Source of the DNA: Rhyzopertha dominica
Taxonomy: Eukaryota > Arthropoda > Insecta > Coleoptera > Bostrichidae
Direction of reading: 5' to 3'
DNA: 64,000 nt
Assembly: GCA_025024175.1 (NCBI GenBank)
Contig: QCXZ01000064.1
Location: forward strand, 13,764,001-13,828,000
Of the stretch, positions 1-31,370 are shown one piece after another; position 1 is the stretch's first letter, and each line of letters opens with the position of its first letter. The translations under genes were made by a program, and so were the position numbers. A model generated the notes under the pieces. The model did not search any database. It was not told the DNA's origin and saw only the letters and a program-made list of their open reading frames with translations.

Positions 1-68
1 CGTTTTCTTTTAGAGAGAGAGGAACAGAGGTTATTGAAACTCGTACAACTGCTGTAACTAATAATACA

Positions 69-74
69 TTTATT
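69..74 (-). terminator. AATAAA polyadenylation signal of the LTR
   Basis: The complement of plus TTTATT reads AATAAA, about 350 bp downstream of the TATA box on the - strand. This is the expected spacing for the R-region end of an LTR. Confidence 0.45.
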
Positions 75-143
75 GTCTCATAAATATAACAACGTGTGTA
101 ATGTAATATATCAAATAGCGGTGTCTTGGGTCTCTGGTCTGGG

Positions 144-389
144 GCATCGATCTCCGGGAAGCTGAGGAGCTCGATGATGCGGACGGTCCTGGAAAGCCGA
201 GGGACCTGGGGACGGTTCTGAACCACGGAAAGCCGAGGGGTTCAGCGGAGGGACCACGGAAAGCCGAGTGGTCTTTGGCGGAGTAGAGTCCCGGAAAGCC
301 GAGGGACTCTGGAGGAGGACGAGGCCGCGGAAAGCCGAGCAGTCGGGGTAGGTACCTCTTGAATTGCTGTGGGGAAGCCGACACAGCAA
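144..389 (-). repeat. Array of seven hairpins with a constant 10-nt loop
   Basis: On the plus strand the loop GGAAAGCCGA (variants GGGAAGCCGA and GGGAAGCTGA) occurs seven times at 156, 191, 227, 258, 293, 329 and 372. Each copy is flanked by complementary arms whose sequence differs from hairpin to hairpin: CTCC/GGAG plus an outer GCATCGA/TCGATG pairing, GGTCC/GGACC, CTGAACC/GGTTCAG, GACCAC/GTGGTC, AGAGTCCC/GGGACTCT, a weaker imperfect stem at 323-344, and TTGCTGTG/CACAGCAA. On the transcribed strand the loop reads TCGGCTTTCC. Spacing between loops is 31-43 bp. Simple tandem duplication would have kept the stems alike. Confidence 0.85.
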
Positions 390-418
390 ACACTAGTTTC
401 TCTTCGGATGGGCTCTAG

Positions 419-426
419 CTTTTATA
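419..426 (-). promoter_or_regulatory. TATA box of the LTR promoter
   Basis: The - strand reads TATAAAAG, preceded by a GC-rich stretch. A transcript starting about 25-30 bp downstream would begin just before the hairpin array, placing all seven hairpins in its 5' leader or R region. Confidence 0.5.
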
Positions 427-543
427 CGGTGCAGGACGGCCAAAGTTCAGAGCGCCTCTCGCCTTCTCAAGCAATGCGAGTGGTGGAACCCTCGCGCATT
501 CGGACGGAGCCGGTCAGCTTCGTTACAATATGGCGGCGTGACA

Positions 544-1020
544 GTTGCAAATTAAAACTACAGGTCATATTTTGTCACTTTGACAATTCTTCTAGTACAC
601 TTTTAATATATACTACAACAGTATTGTGTGTGCAAAAGTTTTTCTCACAATACTGGACCTTAAAAGTAATTTGGCACCCTGAAGGAGAATGAGTCCTATA
701 TGATATTAATAATAAATGCTATTATATGTTTAACTTTTGTGTTACAACAAAAGATTAAAATTTGATTCAAGTTATAGAAAAATTGCAAGACTTTAGTAAT
801 GCGTTACGTCTCTAACTCACCAGGCTGTTTTTGCCGATGCTATGCACTGCACTGCACTGATGATCAGTTAGAAGATCTTGCAGGTCAACCATGAACCTCT
901 GTGCTAGCGGCTTGAAACAAGTACATGATTCAATGACTGTATGCGAACTAATGTTATCTTTTTCCTCTTGGAAAAGCCAATGTGGCACATCATCTGTGCA
1001 TTGTACAGGATAATCTAGTT
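544..1020. other. Unannotated AT-rich DNA
   Basis: No coding frame with recognisable similarity, no repeat with a partner elsewhere in the window, and no convincing regulatory site were seen. Confidence 0.5.
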
Positions 1021-1443
1021 ATCGTGCTCACCCAATTGACGGCTTTATTTGTGATCTTAGAGAAAAATGCTTCAAATAAAAGTTGTAGTACCCAAGGAGT
1101 ACTCGATAACGCAATATAACACATTTATGCAGCGTTGCCAGATTTCGAGTACCGAAACAAACTTGCATTTTTTTTAAATAGAACCACCTACTTTTTATGC
1201 CTGATATGGAGTATATATCAAAATTTGAGAAAAAAATTATTAAGATACATGTGCTCTAAAATTAACGGTTTCGGAGATACGCATGGGTTGGCCCAGTTAT
1301 CGTGCTCACCCAATTGACGGTTTTATTTGTGACCTTAGAGAAAAATGTTTCAAATACAAGTTGTAGCAGCCAAGGAGTACTCTATAACGCAATATAGGAA
1401 ATTTACACAGGGTTGCCAGATTTCGAGTACTGAACCAAACTAA
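1021..1443 (+). repeat. Two tandem copies of a ~145-bp repeat, period ~278 bp
   Basis: 1021-1165 and 1299-1443 align closely, both starting ATCGTGCTCACCCAATTGAC and ending in TTGCCAGATTTCGAGTAC. The 130-bp spacer ends GGTTTCGGAGATACGCATGG. Similar words (a gag/gatac word followed by a short AT run and CACCC or ACACCC) occur at the ends of the foldback repeat at 40088-41180, so the two may belong to one family. Confidence 0.65.
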
Positions 1444-3066
1444 AACGAATAATTTGTTTAATATTCAGTGATAAATTTGGTGACAATGCAGCTGCGCAAC
1501 CTGCACGCATGACTTTAAAGAATAGATAGCTGTTTTCATATTCTGATTTCTTACCAAATTAATTACTGTTGTTTCCCCACAGTTTGTATTTTTCTTATCA
1601 TTTGTATTAGGCACTGGCGATGGCCATTTAAGACCGAAAGATAACAGATTTACTAATATAAGTACCTAAAACAGCTTTGGTTTATTGGTTATATTTTCTA
1701 ATAGTACTAAGGTGTTATTGATGTAAACTGTTGAAAATGTTTTTCTGCATCCTTTATTTCTAGAATTGTTGCAGCTGCGTATTTGGCTTATGTGGCCTAA
1801 AAAGTACTAAACTAAACTAAATGATTTTTCCAACATTCTCTATATCGTTCATTTCGTCTTATACTGTCTCCTACTATTGATCATCTCAAAGCTTTTATAC
1901 CATACATACTGGGCAATTAGATGCTTGTTGACAGTACTTGTTTTGTTTTTACTTCTAAACAGTGCTTAATTCTTAAATACAAGCATTATATGAAGATGTT
2001 ACAGGGCATACGCAGTATACAGCTATATATCCCTCGTGACTTCTACCCATGGCTCTCTTGCAGCTAAGTTTAAAGGCGACTGAATAATACAAATTCAAAA
2101 ATACAATAATATATTCATTTGCTCGCAGTTTAGCCACCAGTCGGAAAACACGAGCGCACGCAAAAGATCGAATGAGTGTCACGGAACACTGTGGTTAGGC
2201 ATTTTATTACACAGTCTCACAACCAGCTACTGGCGAAAAACTGTTTATTAAACGTGTATAACATCGCCACGTCAACTTTATGGCGTACAGTATACTTCAT
2301 ACAACGGTCACGATTTCGTTTTACGGACGAGCAATATCCAAGCTCTGTGTTGCACACACATAAATGCTTTCCCAGTTGCCCATGCGACTGAATAGATGAG
2401 GCATAATGCCTAGTTAAATATTGAAGGTACCGAGCAGTGCTTTCTTCGTACTGCCTAGATCTGACTGTTCAGGAAAACAGAAGATTGCTTATTTCATTTG
2501 AAGAGGGCCGTCCTACAACAATCTCATTTTGATGAAATATGTAGAGTTGGTATTGAGTGCTACTGTGCTCTATATGCATTGTTGCAACTGATCACTTTTC
2601 GACATTTTCACATTTTAATCTCCCTAATCTGAATTTTGCGTCTCACTATGTACGGTATAGTTGCTTTAAGTATTTTATTGATTAAGATTTTGTTTACGAT
2701 TTACCCAATTTAGACTGGGAACATATTTATACTTAATGACAAAGCCCAGTTTGTATGGTTCACGGACAATTCAAAAATTGTCGATGAAAGACCGACAAAA
2801 TATTTTCGTTAAATTTAAAAGAAACAAGTGTTCGGAAAGTGTTATGTTTGTTTAAAATTTATTGATGGAAACGGTTGTGTGCGGATGTGCGAAATCACAT
2901 TTGGTCCCTTTAAAATGATGACATAAAACAAGGTTCAGAACGATGATTTAAGTCAGCTTTATTGCAACAATGTGCTTGGCCAGGTACTAAACGCTTGGCA
3001 TTTAAAATTATTTACTGTAAATGCCTGAAATGCAAATGCATTTTTTTACATCAGGTGTATTTTCTG
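1444..3066. other. Unannotated AT-rich DNA
   Basis: Only short random open frames were seen. Nothing was recognised on either strand. Confidence 0.5.
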
Positions 3067-3068
3067 AG

Positions 3069-3088
3069 ATATATATATATATATATAT
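3069..3088. repeat. (AT)n microsatellite
   Basis: About ten AT dinucleotides directly before the GGCATCC motif array. The equivalent tract in copy B starts right after the gap. Confidence 0.9.
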
Positions 3089-3094
3089 TTCGCG

Positions 3095-3180
3095 CACAAG
3101 TTGGCATCCTCCCATGTTAAAATCGCGGTAAAGTTGGCGTCCGTGGTAAGGTGGCATCCGATATACGGATGCCAACTTGA
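3095..3180. repeat. TTGGCATCC motif array next to the (AT)n tract
   Basis: The word TTGGCATCC or a close variant occurs three times at about 25-30-bp spacing (AGTTGGCATCC, AGTTGGCGTCC, GGTGGCATCC), followed by its inverse GGATGCCAACTT. The same arrangement appears in opposite orientation at 11985-12255, also next to an (AT)n tract. Confidence 0.6.
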
Positions 3181-4849
3181 CTCACATGAAATATTTTAAG
3201 GGCGGCTACTATGGGATGTTCTCCATCCAATGAAGCGAAATTTAGCCGGACGTTATTTTGCACCAACGCCGACTCTTTGTATATTGCCTAGTTCAGCGCA
3301 GTCTTCTGTAGTTGGCGCGACCATCGCATTTGGTATATACATGAGCGGTCGAGGTTGCACTCATAATGGCATCCAGGAAAACTGGCAATTATGCGTACTT
3401 GCTGGGTACGTTGTATTTTGGAACGTTAGCGAGATTTGTGCTCTTTTATGGGCCGCGTTAAGCATTTTTGAATAAATATGAATTGAAAATGTCTAAGAAG
3501 TACTAAAAAGAATAAGCAGGCCTTTGTCGTACCACACGTTTATAGTGTTTTCGGTGCTATGTCTTTTTTATGATGCAATTTTCAAAATGCCTTTTACTAC
3601 AGTTTATTTTAAAAATAGGCACTTAATTTATCACGAAACGAGGCTGAAACAGTAATGCATAAAGGTATCTGCCTAAAATAGGATAGGAGTTCATAAAAAA
3701 GCGCAAAGCATACGCGGCTAGGTAGAACAACTGCATAAGCGTGTTTAAAACAAAAGCTGCCAAAAACAAAGATATTCATATTATCAGTAGATGTTTTGAG
3801 AGGGCATATGAATTCTCTTGCACCTTTCATTTTCCACAGCGAAATTATTCAGTAAATACATTATTATATAGAAGAAAGCTTAAAAAATTATGAAATGATT
3901 TAGACAAGATCTCAGTATTTTAAGCATTTCCAGAAAAGGCAATCATATCGAATACACTTATTCATCTCGCGTAATAATTTTATTTTTATAATTAAAGTAT
4001 CGAAACATTCACTTAAATTCCATACATTTTTTAATATAAAATTATTTAAAATAAAACGAAAAAATTGCTATTTAAGGACAATTAAAGCGAATTGAACGCC
4101 ATTTTTACATTACATCATACTCACGTATTACATTAAAATACTTGTTAGTTTGATACTGTAGTATAGTAGTACTGAAATGAGAAAACTGTGCATTCGAATT
4201 ATTTGTTGGTAAACAGCGTAACTACAGTACATAAATCATTATTGTGAAATTACTACTGTATGTAATAATAAATAGCCGACCAACAATAACTTAGTAAAAT
4301 GATTATAATCAGAGCTTCTGTGGGCTTAATAGGTATTCGCTAAGTCATCGTTAGTCAGTAATCGGATATTTCCAAGTAGTTAAACTGAAAGCAAACTACA
4401 TGTAAAACCTTCAGCTTGTTTCTAATCTAAGTAGTTCTAATGTCTTAACGAGTGCACCGTCTAAAGCTTTTCGTTTAGCGCAAAATTAAACGCGGTCAGT
4501 GCTTACAGTAATTTCCTAATGATTCTGTTCTGCATACAGTGAGTATTTCATAACGCTGGTTTAGAAGTTATTTTTCAGTTTTATGCAACAAAAGCACGTA
4601 AAAATAGTTCTTTGGCGTCTGTGTTGGAAACGCAAAGAGAGCAATTTCACGTTTGTCCAAATACAAGTGCTAGTAATGAATGAGGTACTGGCGATTGTAG
4701 GAACATTTAAATTTTAGGGCAAATTTCTTCCGACGTTAGGACGGAAAGTATTACAGGGGGTTGTAGTGCAGGTATCTCGAGATTAATTAGGTAGCTTGAA
4801 AACTGATTGAAGCCGATTGAATGTATGTGCTTTGCCTCATTTTATTTAT

Positions 4850-5115
4850 CAGATAACTGTGACGATCGCTTCGACCTCAAACGATCATTATCAAAAAGAT
4901 AACAACATTATACAAAACTGAAATGTGCAGAATTTTGTTTACGTCCCCTATTTTAACAGGGGTTGTAAAGTAGCGTTGTAAAATTCTCTGGCCTGCATTT
5001 TGAGGGCCGACTTCCTAGTTTCGGCAAGATCAAAGGTGTGGTGGACGTGGGAATTTTTATTTCCTTATTTGCCAAATGTTTTTTCTGATGCTGACTGCTG
5101 TTGTGACCTGTTGTG
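4850..5115 (-). pseudogene. Penelope-like element tail remnant (copy A)
   Basis: The - strand contains degenerate frames such as NSHVHHTFDLAETRKSAL. Related sequence occurs at 8125-8380 (the duplicate), inverted at 9900-10165, and beside a recognisable GIY-YIG C-terminus at 42830-43075 (NSHIQYGFD). The assignment to the 3' part of a Penelope-like element rests on that last copy. Stops and frameshifts are frequent, so it is dead. Confidence 0.4.
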
Positions 5116-6239
5116 CTTTTATTTTAATAGCTCAACTTGAATTGTCCTATGTATACAATATCGCATTGCATGCATTTTAGTTGGACGCAAACACTAACAC
5201 CTTTAAATAAATTTGCTGCGGCGAAAATATGTTATTTATCATTTATATTAGCATTGTACGGCATTCTTTGTAATCTAACCGCTAGTGGGGTAAATTGGTA
5301 TCTCTCTTCAAAGAGACTTTACTTAAACTAAATGTTATCTAATCCTTTGGGTTTAATAAGCAGTGTAAGTTTCCATTGGTTTTTTCAGGCAGGCTATATG
5401 CATATTACAGTGGTAAACAATAACTTGTGATAAGCAAAAATGGACCATACAGCGAGCAACAAACATTTGAATCGATTTGGAAATCAGAAAAGTGGAAACA
5501 CACGTCAGCCAAACCCGGGTGAAATTAAATTAATCGACACATAAATTACATAAAAACTGCTTAACATATTTTTTATGAGATAACTAAACGACATCTACAA
5601 CGATTGTTTAAAATTGGTTTAAATGGTGTTTGGTCATCAAATACAAAATAGAATTAAATCAACTCAGTTGAATCCCAGTGCGAATTTAAATTCAATAAAT
5701 CGGTTAAGTCTATCTTACGAATTGCACATTTACACAGGCAAAACAAAAATAATTAAATAAAGGTCTAAAATGTAACTCAACTTTACCAGTGTCTAAAAAA
5801 GAATTTGACATTTAGGTATAGAATACAGAATTAGCGTTAGGCCAGCGTCAATTGAAGATATGAAAGACGAAAAGTACGCGGATGCAGATACGATATCAAA
5901 TGAATACAAAGTTGCTTTTCATATAAAGGATCAAATGTAGAAATCGAAAAAAAGCATAAAACAAATATGTACAGATATTCACTAACTATTTATTAAAAAC
6001 AGATTAATACGAACTAAACTAAATGATTTATTGAATACCAAAAAGATTTCTAAGTTTGATTCAGATCTTACAGGCTAGATCCAAAAAATGTTACTTAGCA
6101 TTTTAAAATCTTTGAAATTTGATATTTAACGAAGAAAAGTACAAATTAAGAATAATAACCGTGTGTTAGAATTCTATATGGTCTCCCAAAGACTCAACTC
6201 CCTTAGACCGCGTCTGTCTTTTTTACATTAATGATCCAT

Positions 6240-6339
6240 NNNNNNNNNNNNNNNNNNNNNNNNNNNNNNNNNNNNNNNNNNNNNNNNNNNNNNNNNNNNN
6301 NNNNNNNNNNNNNNNNNNNNNNNNNNNNNNNNNNNNNNN
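6240..6339. other. Assembly gap of exactly 100 N
   Basis: One hundred consecutive N, the conventional size for a scaffold gap of unknown length. It separates the two copies of the 3.17-kb repeat. Confidence 0.98.
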
Positions 6340-9300
6340 ATAATATATATATATATATATATATATATCGCGCACAAGTTGGCATCCTCCCATGTTAAAA
6401 TCGCGGTAAAGTTGGCGTCCCGTGGTAAGGTGGCATCCGATATACGGATGCCAACTTGACTCACATGAAATATTTTAAGGGCGGCTACTATGGGATGTTC
6501 TCCATCCAATGAAGCGAAATTTAGCCGGACGTTATTTTGCAGCCAACGCCGACTCTTTGTATATTGCCTAGTTCAGCGCAGTCTTCTGTAGTTGGCGCGA
6601 CCATCGCATTTGGTATATACATGAGCGGTCGAGGTTGCACTCATAATGGCATCCAGGAAAACTGGCAATTATGCGTACTTGCTGGGTACGTTGTATTTTG
6701 GAACGTTAGCGAGATTTGTGCTCTTTTATGGCCGCGTTAAAGCATTTTTGAATAAATATGAATTGAAAATGTCTAAGAAGTACTAAAAAGAATAAGCAGG
6801 CCTTTGTCGTACCACACGTTTATAGTGTTTTTCGGTGCTATGTCTTTTTATGATGCAATTTTCAAAATGCCTTTTACTACAGTTTATTTTAAAAATAGGC
6901 ACTTAATTTATCACGAAACGAGGCTGAAACAGTAATGCATAAAGGTATCTGCCTAAAATAGGATAGGATTCATAAAAAAAGCGCAAAGCATACGCGCTAG
7001 GTAGAACAACTGCATAAGCGTGTTTAAAAAACAAAAGCTGCCAAAAACAAAGATATTCATATTATCAGTAGATGTTTTGAGAGGGCATATGAATTCTCTT
7101 GCACCTTTCATTTTCCACAGCGAAATTATTCAGTAAATACATTATTATATAGAAGAAAGCTTAAAAATTATGAAATGATTTAGACAAGATCTCAGTATTT
7201 TAAGCATTTCCCAGAAAAGGCAATCATATCGAATACACTTATTCATCTCGCGTAATAATTTTATTTTTATAATTAAAGTATCGAAACATTCACTTAAATT
7301 CCATACATTTTTTAATATAAAATTATTTAAAATAAAACGAAAAAAATTGCTATTTAAGGACAATTAAAGCGAATTGAACGCCATTTTTACATTACATCAT
7401 ACTCACGTATTACATTAAAATACTTGTTAGTTTGATACTGTAGTATAGTAGTACTGAAATGAGAAAACTGTGCATTCGAATTATTTGTTGGTAAACAGCG
7501 TAACTACAGTACATAAATCATTATTGTGAAATTACTACTGTATGTAATAATAAATAGCCGACCAACAATAACTTAGTAAAATGATTATAATCAGAGCTTC
7601 TGTGGGCTTAATAGGTATTCGCTAAGTCATCGTTAGTCAGTAATCGGATATTTCCAAGTAGTTAAACTGAAAGCAAACTACATGTAAAACCTTCAGCTTG
7701 TTTCTAATCTAAGTAGTTCTAATGTCTTAACGAGTGCACCGTCTAAAGCTTTTCGTTTAGCGCAAAATTAAACGCGGTCAGTGCTTACAGTAATTTCCTA
7801 ATGATTCTGTTCTGCATACAGTGAGTATTTCATAACGCTGGTTTAGAAGTTATTTTTCAGTTTTATGCAACAAAAGCACGTAAAAATAGTTCTTTGGCGT
7901 CTGTGTTGGAACGCAAAGAGAGCAATTTCACGTTTGTCCAAATACAAGTGCTAGTAATGAATGAGGTACTGGCGATTGTAGGAACATTTAAATTTTAGGG
8001 CAAATTTCTTCCGACGTTAGGACGGAAAGTATTACAGGGGGTTGTAGTGCAGGTATCTCGAGATTAATTAGGTAGCTTGAAAACTGATTGAAGCCGATTG
8101 AATGTATGTGCTTTGCCTCATTTTATTTATCAGATAACTGTGACGATCGCTTCGACCTCAAACGATCATTATCAAAAAGATAACAACATTATACAAAACT
8201 GAAATGTGCAGAATTTTGTTTACGTCCCCTATTTTACAGGGGTTGTAAAGTAGCGTTGTAAAATTCTCTGGCCTGCATTTTGAGGGCCGACTTCCTAGTT
8301 TCGGCAAGATCAAAGGTGTGGTGGACGTGGGAATTTTTATTTCCTTATTTGCCAAATGTTTTTTCTGATGCTGACTGCTGTTGTGACCTGTTGTGCTTTT
8401 ATTTTAATAGCTCAACTTGATTGTCCTATGTATACAATATCGCATTGCATGCATTTTAGTTGACGCAAACACTAACACCTTTAAAATAATTTGCTGCGGC
8501 GAAAATATGTTATTTATCATTTATATTAGCATTGTACGGCATTCTTTGTAATCTAACCGCTAGTGGGGTAAATTGGTATCTCTCTTCAAAGAGACTTTAC
8601 TTAAACTAAATGTTATCTAATCCTATTGGGTTTAATAAGCAGTGTAAGTTCCATGGTTTTTCAGCAGGCTATATGCATATTAAGTGTAACAATAACTTGT
8701 GATAAGCAAAAATGGACCATACAGCGAGCAACAACCATTTGAATCGATTTGGAAATCAGAAAGTGGAACACACGTCAGCAAAACCCGGGTGAAAATTTAA
8801 AATTAATTGACACATAATTACATAAAAACTGCTTAACATATTTTTTATGAGATAACTAACGACATCTACAACGATGTTTAAATGGTTTAAATGGTAGTTT
8901 GGTCATCAAATACAAAATAGAATTAAAATCAACTCAGTTAATCCCCAGTGCGAATTTAAATTCAATAATCGTTAAGTCTATCTTACGAATGCACATTTTA
9001 CACAGGCAAAACAAAAATAATTAAATAAAGGTCTAAAATGTAACTCAACTTTACCAGTGTCTAAAAAAGAATTTGACATTTAGGTATAGAATACAGAATT
9101 AGCGTTAGGCCAGCGTCAATTGAAGATATGAAAGACGAAAAGTACGCGGATGCAGATACGATATCAAATGAATACAAAGTTGCTTTTCATATAAAGGATC
9201 AAATGTAGAAATCGAAAAAAGCATAAAACAAATATGTACAGATAATTCACTAACTATTTATTAAAAACAGATTAATACCGAACTAAACTAAATGATTTAT

Positions 9301-15200: not shown

Positions 15201-18119
15201 ATCCAAGTTTGACAGTATTAGAATTAATTAAAGGGAATTGTCATCGAGTACTAAGAGAAGGGATACCAAGTAGAAGGCTAACGGCAAAATTTATTGAGAG
15301 TAAATAGCTGTTAGTTAACATAATCTTGCTATAGTTACAGGTTCTGCCTCCCAGTTTGATTATTAGAAATTTTAATAAGTTTGTTTAATGAACCACAATG
15401 ACAGGCAAGAGGTATTCATAGAAACATGAAAACTATGAATTCCAAGCGGTGTGGTCTTTATTCTTATAAATGTCACACTTCGTTCAGAATTTACACCTTA
15501 CATGCAACCATTGATATAAATTTTGTTTCTATTTGTCTTGTTGTTCTTACATTACATTTTTTCAATAATTAAACAATATTTGCAATAATTAAATAATTCA
15601 ACAGAAAGCTACAATCCAATTAGCATAGTCGGTCTTGAAGTTGCTAGATATCTCAACAAACAAATAGTAATGGAATTACCTGCAAAATTATTGTCCGTGT
15701 GGTTTTCGTACATTAAGATCCAGGGTGAGTGCAATTGCCTCGCTTATTATTCGTTACTCGTTGGACAGTAGTATGCTATTTTGACGGGTTCTTTGATCTA
15801 TAGAAATCATTTGACTTCAACAATTACTGTCTGGAGACAAAATACGCATAAACATAAGTGGCATTATTCGCCTTTTAACGAAAGCGACATAATAGAGAAA
15901 AATTACGTTTTTTTTAAAAAAAAGCTTTGTACCTATAGTATAACTAACTTAAGTCATTGTTTATTGAAATTAAGCTGTCACTATTAAACACTAAAAAATT
16001 TAGCATCTAATTTATTACAATGGATACGGGAACGAACAATTGTAACATACATAAGCTCAAAAAAGCAATCTATCTCATTTAGTACTGTGACAAATAAAGT
16101 ATAATAAATGTTATTATATAACAATAAGTAACTACACAGGTATTAGGTAAGCGAATTCCATTAATTTTTGAATTTACAAATTACAGTAATAAATAAATTG
16201 CTATCAAACAAAATAGTGTGATTACAATTAAACTAATAGCTTACCTCCACCATGTACAGATATTAAAAAAGTTTGCCGAGCTCATGCATTCATTTGCGCT
16301 TCCAAACCATAATTTTTGTAGCATACTCCTATTTAATGTGTGCACTCGATTTAATATAGATAGATAGCAATTATCAGAATGCAGATATACAGAATACTTA
16401 AAAGTATTCAGTGTGTATCGATATTTTGATATCTTCATCTGTATTTGCTTGATGTATATATGTCGTGGAGGTCGGTGAAGAGAAGCGCTGAATGTACTTA
16501 CACACAGAATTTTCCGTCGGCAAACATTTGTTAACTTAGACGGCGCGTTTCTACAATATAATGCGGCAAAGTGCACGGATTGCTCTTTGCGCTGCGCTGC
16601 TTATTACTATGATACCTTATCTTATTTGTAACTGCACCAGCAGCGCAATAGGCGTTTTCCCGTCCTATCTTCTGATATTGAGTGGCCACAAATAAGTGAT
16701 AAAAAATTAATGATCCTCTTTTCCAAACCAATGAATGAATCTAAGCGAATGATTTACTGCTAAGTTGGGTGAGGTAGTAAATCATTTCGATAGTACTATC
16801 ACTAGTCGCCACGATAATTTTTATTTTAAAGGTCGAAAGTACTTAGATTTGTTGCTAAAATCATCATTGTAGAGTAACTATGTTTTCAAATTAAAATATA
16901 ACCACTTACTATGAGGTTGTCGATGTGTTAGTATAGGTTTTAAGAACAACCCTAAAACATAGCAGATGCAAGCGAAATGCTTTTATCCCACTACACACTA
17001 AATAAAAAAGTATTAGCTGGCAACTCCAGATAATTCAATTTCTTCGGTACCGGCACAAGACTCGTAGGTACTCAAAGGCACAATGTTCTCTATAAATCCT
17101 CGATAAATGGCAAGTTAACTTGCTTGGCTTAAGCTTCTTAACTTCACTTGCGCAGCATGAGACAGTCGCAACGAATCTCGAACTATCCAGCGACAAAAAT
17201 TCCGCTCATTTAAGCGAATTACGAAATACCCCACAGCGACCGGGAAAGCAAGGCGCAGAGGAAAGAAGCAGCTTCCCTAGCATGTTTAGCTCGTCGACGT
17301 CGAGAGCTTTGTATTGGGTTACACATTGAATTGAAAACAAAGGCGGAAACTCCCTTGAACGCTCCATCCGGAAAGAGAAAGCTTGCATGCCGAGAAATAC
17401 TTGTGAATGTTTGAACCTACTTTCGGTTTCTTTCCATTGATCCCGGTAGGATACTTCCTTTCAAGAACGCCAGTTGGTAAGCACAGCGGATGAGATTACT
17501 TTAATTTAAGATCGTCGCAACTTCTTCGTAGCAAGTTTGCAATGCAATAAAAGGAGTGTTGCGAACTAAAAAAAAATCTTTAATTTATTGGAAAATACTG
17601 GTTCAGGCTAAACACCTCTACTTCTTCACATCATCCGTATTATTATACCCCTGCAAACATATTTTCTTTATATGCTAATTTTGTACACTTGGCTACGTAT
17701 GTGAACATCACGCAGTTGTATTACCTGTATATATAAAAAAAAAGAAACAGTAATTTTTTTAAAATTTTATAGTAGGTGATTAAGTACCAGAACATAACTG
17801 ACCCTGGTATAAGATCACCGTACACCATGACCTGACACCCCTCAAATTCGTGTTATTCTGGTATTATGGTAATAAAAAACTTATGCTGTATAGCCAGGAA
17901 AATATCTTTGATATTTTTTACATTAAAGCGGTATCTGATACAGGCTCTTAAATGTTGCATTATTAGAAGATTTCAAGGTATTTTACTTTCCAGTTTGATA
18001 TTATTTAATGATTTTGGCTTAAGTTTATTTTACGCCTTTGACAGTTTCAAGGGATTAAATCCTAGTGCCCTAATGTAAGAAGTCACTATGTGACCTGAGG
18101 CTAACAGAATTTTTAAAGA
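12256..18119. other. Long stretch without recognisable genes
   Basis: Short frames on both strands show no family signature and no paired splice sites that I trust. The part 17040-17520 is less AT-rich than its surroundings and could be an exon or regulatory element, but no conserved protein is visible there. Confidence 0.45.
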
Positions 18120-18710
18120 GGAAGGCCTAGTATAACCATACTTATATGTATAATATGGATAATTTTCTTGCACTGGTGGCAGTCCCGAACAAATGCTAAT
18201 ATCTTTACTCTTTAACAGTCCCAATAAATAATGAATTTTATCTGCATCCGATAATACAGTGTTATCATGTATCAGTCTTTTAAATATTGCGTAAAAACTA
18301 GGCCACTTCCAAAATTCACCCGTAAACTGTGAAATTTCAATTCTGGGTAACATAGGTGTTTTCCACTCTGCGAGGCTCACACTCCAATTTGAAGGTTCTT
18401 TTTTAACCGTAGTGTTTAATTTCGACGCTGCCTCGTGAATATGACAACAAATATCCTTAATTGTCGGTATTATTGCAAAATTTGGTTCATAGTTTGCGTC
18501 CTCTTCCAACTTTTCTACTTCGATTTCTTCTGCAATACGTAGCAGTTCTTTTCTTGTTATATCGATAGACTGATAAAGCGTTTTAAATTGCCGCGCAACA
18601 GATGGATGATTTAATGTTTTTGTAAAATCTAACGTTTTCTCCAATATACTGTAGTGTGAGTCTCGCTTCGCCACAAGCATTTTTACTTTGTGATCTGCAA
18701 CCGTTGCCAT
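18120..18710 (-). pseudogene. BEL/Pao gag, truncated (DUF1759-type domain)
   Basis: Starting at ATG 18710, the - strand frame encodes an N-terminal helical region of about 110 residues. The DUF1759-type gag core typical of BEL/Pao elements follows, with the markers LPRIEISQFTGEFWKWPSFY (about residues 120-139) and HDNTVLSDADKIHYL (about residues 147-161). Similarity continues through SICSGLPPVQENY and then stops. The frame ends in unrelated sequence near 18030 and no zinc knuckles, protease or RT follow, so the element is truncated. The LTR and primer-binding site lie directly upstream (18864-19070), giving the expected LTR-PBS-gag order. It is independent of the BEL element at 61455. Confidence 0.8.
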
Positions 18711-18863
18711 TTTTAATTTTGAATATTAATATACTATGCCGTTTTTAAATATTTACACCAACCTCCGAAAGCTGACCTCTAGAACGTCCAGAACGATAGT
18801 CTATCCGAAAAACCGTCAAAAAAACTGACCGATAAGCACGTACCTTTCCGAGGCACGCTTGAA

Positions 18864-30204: not shown

Positions 30205-31370
30205 TCCTAAGGTTTCGCTAGCAACAGTGGCAAACTTCTTCAGAGGTCCTTCCATCTCTGGTGCTGGATGTAGACTAACGAGTTACTTTTGCGTCTGCTG
30301 TTATGGAGCACCTAATATAAATATCATTTTCTCCTGTCATCCGTGAAACATTCATGTGGGAAATTTGGGTAGATATCGTATTTTTATTCGACTGACGAGT
30401 TCTCCTGCGCAAGTTGTATTTATACNGGTAGGTCGAGGCGNGGCTTGTTCCGCCNGGGTTGACGTCGGGATGTCGATCGGCATAGCTAGGGCGTTCGTGA
30501 TAATCGGGTTCCAGATCCGGTTGAGCCTGAGGGTCTCCTCTTTTCTATTGAAATTATCAGGATGTTTGTGGATCTCGATTATTTCCCTGGTCAGTCTGCT
30601 GTGATAGCCGTTGACTAATGCTAGCAACCTACAGTTCTCTAAGTGTATCCTGTGGTCGCCGTTGCTCAATGCGTGCTTGGCTACGGCAGACTTCTCAGTT
30701 CGTCCTAACCGGCAATATGCTTTATGTCCCTTGAGTCTCGTTCCCATTGATCTCTTGGTAGTTCCAATATAGACCTTGCCGCAAGAACACGGTACGCGGT
30801 AGACTCCTGCTGCTGAAAGTGTGTCCCTCTTGTCCTTCGCTGATCTGATGATTTGCTTGATCTTCTTCGTAAGTCTGAAGATTGTTCTGATGTCGTGCCT
30901 CCTCAGACATCTGTTAATCTTGTCTGTGACTCTAGCAACACACGGAAGATAATCTTGAGAGGTGGTAGGTTGTTGTTCGATTTCCCTTGATGATATCTGG
31001 ACCATTGACTTTTCGATCTCCCTCTTGCTGTAGCCATTTGCCTCGAATGCAGTTCTCAGGTGTTCAAGTTCCTCTTGTAGGTTCTTCGGTTCGCAAGTCC
31101 TTCGAGCTCGTTCTGTCAGGGTTCTGATGACTCCATACTTCTGACTCAGATGATGGTTGGACAAAGCGTTCAGGTATCTGTCCGTATGTGTTGGTTTCCT
31201 GTACACTGTTTGACCCAGTTTGTTTCCACGCTTCCTTACTAGTACAACCAAGAAAGCCAGTTGTTGGTAAACTGGTTGCTAGGATGCTGGCTATTGAGGC
31301 GCTGAAGAAAGTCATTGGATTGCCCAAGATCCACAAAGATATGCAAAAGTACATGGTGTTCCATTTATAA
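30205..31370 (-). mobile_element. Penelope-like element, 3' part with GIY-YIG endonuclease, - strand
   Basis: Contains the best-preserved Penelope-like frame of the window (31251-30352). RT similarity can be followed upstream to about 31285 (QQLAFLVVLVRKRGNK), where a stop and frame change end it, so the 5' part is missing. The 3' end near 30205-30250 carries a CTGAAGA...GAAAC motif like the terminal motifs of the other copies. Confidence 0.85.
30352..31251 (-). pseudogene. Penelope-like RT C-terminus plus GIY-YIG endonuclease, 5'-truncated
   Basis: A 299-residue open frame. Residues 1-60 hold the end of the RT palm/thumb (QTVYRKPTHTDRYLNALSNH). Residues about 60-150 form the charged linker (LQEELEHLRTAFEANGYSKR). 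The GIY-YIG nuclease follows from about residue 148: GVYRVPCSCGKVYIGTTKRS, then the MGTRLKGHK helix with the conserved Arg, then AVAKHALSNGDHRI with the metal-site/His region. The usual catalytic elements look present. In intact elements this nuclease nicks target DNA for target-primed reverse transcription. Three ambiguous bases (30426, 30441, 30455) fall in the C-terminal part. Without the RT catalytic core the copy cannot be autonomous. Confidence 0.88.

Follow-up and report, generated by a model that had tools for sequence, protein, structure and literature searches.

The 64,000-nucleotide (nt) window analyzed here (contig QCXZ01000064.1 of the beetle Rhyzopertha dominica, positions 13,764,001 to 13,828,000, forward strand) begins inside a long terminal repeat (LTR) read on the minus strand, which we assign to a Ty3/Gypsy retrotransposon. 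This LTR carries an array of seven hairpins, A to G, in which one near-constant loop is displayed on stems that differ from each other. The features of the LTR are as follows.

1..527, minus strand: first 527 bases of a 717-bp solo LTR, identified by whole-genome copies and the ends TGTAACGA...CTGTTACA
69..74, minus strand: poly(A) signal AATAAA, from the sequence
144..180, minus strand: hairpin G, core 147-174 with stem TCGAGCTCC/GGAGATCGA and loop TCAGCTTCCC
185..206, minus strand: hairpin F, stem GGTCCC/AGGACC, with C-A as loop-closing pair in the window copy
218..245, minus strand: hairpin E, stem CTGAACCCC/GTGGTTCAG, with one mismatch in the window copy
252..273, minus strand: hairpin D, stem GACCAC/GTGGTC
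285..310, minus strand: hairpin C, stem AGAGTCCC/GGGACTCT
323..344, minus strand: hairpin B, stem GACTGC/GCGGCC, decayed in the window copy (GGCTGC/GCGGCC in most other copies)
364..389, minus strand: hairpin A, stem TTGCTGTG/CACAGCAA, loop TCGGCTTCCC
420..426, minus strand: TATA box TATAAAA, from the sequence
528..531, no strand: target-site duplicate ATAT, repeated past the other LTR end

The remaining 190 bp of this LTR fall beyond the window start. TGTAAC...GTTACA ends were found with 4-bp target duplicates in five copies (ATAT, CCGT, TTAG, GAGT, and GTTT), and these five are solo LTRs because the duplicates lie directly at both LTR ends. The first-pass annotation, made from the sequence alone, had placed the array in an LTR between a TATA box and a poly(A) signal. 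Both placements were borne out: LTR copies occur across the genome, and the two signals bracket the array on the minus strand, so that the array would be in R of the LTR, with its first stem starting ~30 nt downstream of the TATA box. Behind one copy (L053), a primer-binding site, tggcgcccgagcagggac, lies ~8 nt past the LTR end (tggcgcccg type; presumably resembling a tRNA-Lys site), and the stretch that follows (L105) encodes RT_RNaseH_2, RT_RNaseH, Integrase_H2C2, rve, and SH3_Tf2-1, all above cut-offs and in the Ty3/Gypsy pol order. The RVT_1 match there was weak and below its cut-off, and gag and most of the reverse transcriptase are missing. On sequence criteria, the array-bearing element is a Ty3/Gypsy LTR retrotransposon.

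In the sense (minus-strand) RNA, 144-389 contains seven instances of the loop UCGGCUUUCC or a near match to it, no two of them on the same stem. On the plus strand, the loops start at 156, 191, 227, 258, 293, 329, and 372; five of the seven read exactly GGAAAGCCGA, with the variants GGGAAGCCGA at 372 and GGGAAGCTGA at 156, as described in the first-pass annotation. Stem scores (maximum 8) were, in the same order, 6, 4, 6, 6, 8, 2, and 8. The 329 stem is partly decayed in the window copy (one mismatch and one wobble), and stems 191 and 227 each show, in the sense RNA, a mismatch at the loop or beside it. The own-arm scores summed to 40, which the true pairing alone reached among all 5040 arm permutations (mean 13.4), and the top sum in 2 million draws of random flanks of the same composition was 19. 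These two results reject a chance origin of the array. The 6-nt arms share 37-41% identity between hairpins of the window array.

The least decayed copy of the LTR (L046) gave an arm score of 47, again the single best of 5040 permutations. Identity among its loops is 94% and among its arms 33-37%, by which plain tandem duplication is rejected. All nine pair columns of its seven hairpins change on both sides, and the covariation score was 0.884, compared with 0.288 in shuffles (0/500 reached the observed value) and ≤0.196 in slid controls, in agreement with the earlier claim of compensatory variation among the hairpins of one molecule. The seven-hairpin array with stem-specific pairing is thus confirmed and extends beyond the window, and its structure is well supported.

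No comparable arrays with matching stems were found in searches of viral contigs, phages, and genome contigs. Stems flanking 28 occurrences of the loop 10-mer in viral contigs scored 0-2, and 163 loops from 31 further stretches with three clustered loops (bacterial, archaeal, and viral records; 28 from the genome-contig scan and 3 viral) scored 0-4, with at most four distinct left arms in any stretch. Scanning the window for clustered hairpins with a common loop of 7-14 nt gave no other cluster of at least three, only a few pairs, most of them in AT repeats. An Rfam search of the window returned 0 matches above the gathering score, by which a known RNA family is rejected for the array. The open-access literature, outside which most subscription papers fall, gave no account of hairpin arrays with a constant loop in LTRs.

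To follow the array through its family, we searched the 479-Mb assembly with the window LTR, which gave 50 matches representing ~20 LTR copies and fragments; a search with the other LTR end gave 26 matches, mostly at loci already found, with a few weak fragments besides. Eight of 30 loci were dropped as second halves of the same copies, and L073, among the remaining 22, yielded no scored hairpin. The resulting 21 copies contained 147 scored hairpins, a count that excludes twelve weak or decayed matches (L108-L119; hairpin-like loops in 6/12). L049 and L050 look like one duplicated segment, their arrays and flanks being near-identical. Each copy holds 2 to 10 hairpins, and the better-preserved ones 6-10, by a stricter count to which looser limits add a few spurious units. 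Seven stem types, A-G, can be distinguished among the hairpins, and their order is fixed; duplications of all or part of the C-D-E block occur in L047, L051, L053, L054, and L058, among others. Both arms belong to one type in 132 of the 147; 15 are mixed, 2 of them ambiguously, and in the 13 unambiguous cases the joint is at the loop, which suggests that hairpin units are gained and lost by recombination through this constant element. Loop position 8 is frequently C in types A, C, E, and G and nearly always T in B, D, and F, as if the ancestral unit of the array were a hairpin pair; the relatives described below likewise alternate two stem types. The 76 loop-pair matches in the genome all belong to LTRs of this family, compared with 0 matches for the reversed-pattern control, and a spread of the focal loop array beyond the family is therefore rejected. 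Two LTR copies (L055/L073 and L063) are interrupted at nearly the same place, close to the TATA box and the presumed start of transcription, and the two halves overlap by 10-15 bp. Another locus, L106, is a stretch upstream of a 70%-identical LTR.

Similar arrays were present in related elements. A search with the pol fragment, in which 100 of 4431 candidates were scored, gave 15 relatives besides itself at 54-60% amino-acid identity, and we examined the LTR-bearing stretches of five (L132 with L133, then L134-L137). These five represent four families besides the focal one, since L137 and L132 share ~88% identity across most of their match. Arrays occurred in all five, with 6, 4, 8, 8, and 3 hairpins, and each related family has a near-constant loop within its array (AGGUCGCUUUCC, AGGUCGUUUUUCC, UAGGUUUUGUA, and UAGUUUUUGUA) on outer stems that are unlike but mostly paired. 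The arrays of the related families are thus comparable in form, each with its own core. In one relative, two LTR stretches (1461 nt) are 99.8% identical and the pol frame stays open for 1121 codons, which places an array in a young element. Four of the relatives also carry, inside their LTRs, a primer-site-like TGGCGCCCGAG motif ~200 nt past an AATAAA, at the following positions (oriented for L135 and L136).

L132:2913, LTR-internal: inner TGGCGCCCGAG motif
L134:2447, LTR-internal: inner TGGCGCCCGAG motif
L135 near 2617, LTR-internal: inner TGGCGCCCGAG motif
L136 near 2591, LTR-internal: inner TGGCGCCCGAG motif

Covariation was evaluated in two sets of relatives, for each of which RNAalifold predicted one hairpin. 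In the L132/L137/L134 set (13 hairpins), 7/20 pairs were compensated, 93.7% of cells were paired (slid controls ≤58.3%), and the covariation score was 0.370 versus 0.250 in shuffles and ≤0.125 in slid controls. The L135/L136 set (16 hairpins) gave 10/22 compensated pairs, 88.8% paired cells (slid ≤45.6%), and a score of 0.388 versus 0.237 and ≤0.139. Array rows are related by duplication, and these counts are not independent events; three of five covariation measures favor the folded form. In addition, G-U cells exceeded A-C cells by 44:7 and 86:8 in the two sets, where composition predicts about 2:1 and 3:1 (the cells being likewise not independent), and 2 and 5 columns were G-U in at least half of the rows, with none for A-C. 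This excess favors the sense RNA as the selected molecule. An array without RNA function, consisting of DNA-level sites or arising by mutation, for instance through template switching that makes inverted repeats in a tandem array, would fit the shifts of copy number by unit duplication and recombination inside the loop, as well as the unremarkable minimum free energy (MFE) of the whole region. A near-invariant core carried by unlike stems across several families is hard to account for in this way, as are base-pair covariation and the sense-strand G-U excess of the relatives, and we judge an array without RNA function very unlikely.

The position of the arrays in the relatives bears on their possible role. 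One perfect (9/9) match to the splice donor CAG/GTGAGT was found 77-103 nt before the array in 5/5 relatives; by chance, such a match is expected about once per 65 kb if equal base use is assumed, and the plus strand of the window, the strand scanned, has none. Between the LTR end and the primer site, L133 (1462-1535) has a ~70-nt T-rich tract followed by GAGCAG/GG, for which a possible acceptor is our guess. A location just past a donor sequence, together with the repeated display of one core, which suits cooperative binding, would be consistent with a nuclear export or retention element for intron-containing genomic RNA, similar to a constitutive transport element or Rev response element, with a host export adaptor or a protein of the element as its reader. 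Cores that differ strongly between families in one host are unfavorable to a single host adaptor, and the focal LTR has no donor; we therefore consider this role unlikely.

Two further roles depend on where the array lies and what its loops can pair with. The first stem of the focal array, ~30 nt past the TATA box, would be near the cap, as expected if the array controlled translation or stability through a host RNA-binding protein or as a cap-proximal structure in itself. An invariant loop is unnecessary for a mere roadblock, and in the four relatives with the LTR start covered (all but L137) the distance from LTR start to array is 273-332 nt, with the donor in front of the array, which makes this explanation improbable. 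Genome dimerization through loop-loop contact, one of the roles listed in the first-pass annotation, might be expected where a number of loops are exposed close to the 5' end. Within the focal loop no 4- or 6-mer is self-complementary, and the sense strand of window 31-400 offers it no complement of 6-9 nt, by which dimerization is rejected for the focal array; one 8-nt complement was found in the examined pieces of four relatives, and overall we give this role hardly any credence.

We instead favor, at slightly less than an even chance, a selected RNA structure in the leader that would act as a multivalent cis-acting signal of the unspliced genomic RNA, most likely a packaging signal bound by Gag. 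The near-invariant loop UCGGCUUUCC, displayed by 6-10 hairpins in better-preserved copies on unlike but complementary stems, would be the recognized element, the stems would serve only to present it, and several loop copies may provide avidity. The reader would most likely be the element's own Gag, through a zinc-knuckle nucleocapsid, because the cores differ between families in one host and because relatives encode the CX2CX4HX4C knuckle, found in 8/14 of their gag/pol pieces examined. Splicing at the donor in the relatives would delete the array from mRNA, so that unspliced genomic RNA could be selected for packaging. Packaging is preferred over export and translation on account of two features: the multi-copy layout, which alphavirus signals share, and the position behind the donor.

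Several observations weigh against a selected, Gag-read RNA signal. In the relatives, two of the five covariation measures did not exceed shuffles: pairs changed on both sides were as numerous in 136/500 and 190/500 shuffles of the two sets, and pair types in 499/500 and 247/500. The L046 set showed no strand bias (G-U 1, A-C 2). Arm swaps were as good as the true pairing in 12/5040 (L135), 16/40320 (L136), 4/120 (L132), 8/24 (L134), and 4/6 (L137) cases, in a test that is weaker in the relatives because their arrays hold repeated stem types. Within the focal family, alignment of the LTR copies, proposed earlier as the test of stem covariation, left 853 of 937 paired cells of the 132 hairpins unchanged, with 83 one-sided changes, 1 two-sided unpaired change, and 0 compensated; compensated changes appear in the deeper relatives. 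Mispaired chimeric hairpins also persist in several copies. Folding of the whole 252 nt was not clearly better than shuffled sequence on the sense strand (z -1.38, 21/200 shuffles as good) or the other strand (z -1.13, 27/200). The uncompensated changes and the shuffle result both partly match outcomes that the first-pass annotation had named as refuting. We do not regard them as fatal, since solo LTRs in decay make up many of the copies and the MFE of a GC-rich 252-mer has little power as a test. The one-sided changes fit decayed copies and neither prove nor disprove past selection, and, folding being only mildly better than in shuffles, the case for the array does not rest on stability. Four copies of the focal LTR contained no donor-like site of at least 8/9, so that the splicing argument rests on the relatives and their putative donor. 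Finally, the zinc knuckles are alike across families with differing cores.

Known packaging signals offer partial parallels. Retroviral psi lies after the major splice donor and comprises few unlike hairpins. The array lies past a candidate donor match in 5/5 relatives but not in the focal LTR. A zinc-knuckle Gag and a tRNA-type primer site are features in common with psi, from which the arrays differ in having 3-10 hairpins with one loop. The MS2-type coat-protein operator, present singly in MS2, consists of a bulge, a short helix, and a tetraloop on a tolerant stem, and in local folds of the sense strand 3/7 focal hairpins have a 2-nt bulge, GG/CC, and a 4-nt loop, a likeness of form only. 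Dispersed hairpin packaging signals also occur in satellite tobacco necrosis virus and enteroviruses. In hepatitis B virus, several stem-loops reportedly likewise show one motif to the capsid protein; such dispersed viral signals are spread along the genome, whereas the array is confined to one LTR. Several hairpins with a common loop motif and tolerant stems, as in multi-hairpin packaging signals, are present in the array. Woot and the Osvaldo/Ulysses group are insect Gypsy-class elements with long LTRs. The passages on them that were examined describe no hairpin array (PMC3601003, PMC12992720, PMC2397513). In alphaviruses, a packaging signal located in nsP1 ensures that the genomic RNA is the one packaged (PMC8233893); it belongs to another replicon, lies in a coding region, shows GGG instead of a 10-nt loop, and has an experimentally tested function. 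Several hairpins with a common loop are already known in RNA viruses.

Elsewhere in the window, direct repeats (mostly 95-100% identical, spacing ~3.28 kb) occupy 3069-4719 and 6347-8000, within the scanned bases 1-8000. Another open reading frame (ORF) of the window has its best named relative in Henosepilachna (75% identity). Two further features were recorded.

18030-18725, minus strand: DUF1759 domain match, which we take to be of Pao/BEL gag type
30352-31278, minus strand: ORF with relatives that have RVT_1 and, in some cases, GIY-YIG domains, presumably Penelope-like

To our knowledge, the choice of RNA for packaging by animal LTR retrotransposons is understood for few elements. As a tentative and rather doubtful extension, the arrays may mark an insect Ty3/Gypsy lineage with splice-gated multivalent packaging, in which identical loops on stems free to vary, placed behind a donor and therefore shown by unspliced genomic RNA alone, would present a family-specific core to the element's own Gag, with array size changed by recombination within the loop. 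The repeated hairpins inside one RNA constitute a built-in covariation experiment, and the loop-plus-variable-stem descriptor can be used to seek similar elements in other insect LTRs. Because several families with distinct cores share a host, self-recognition can also be tested directly.
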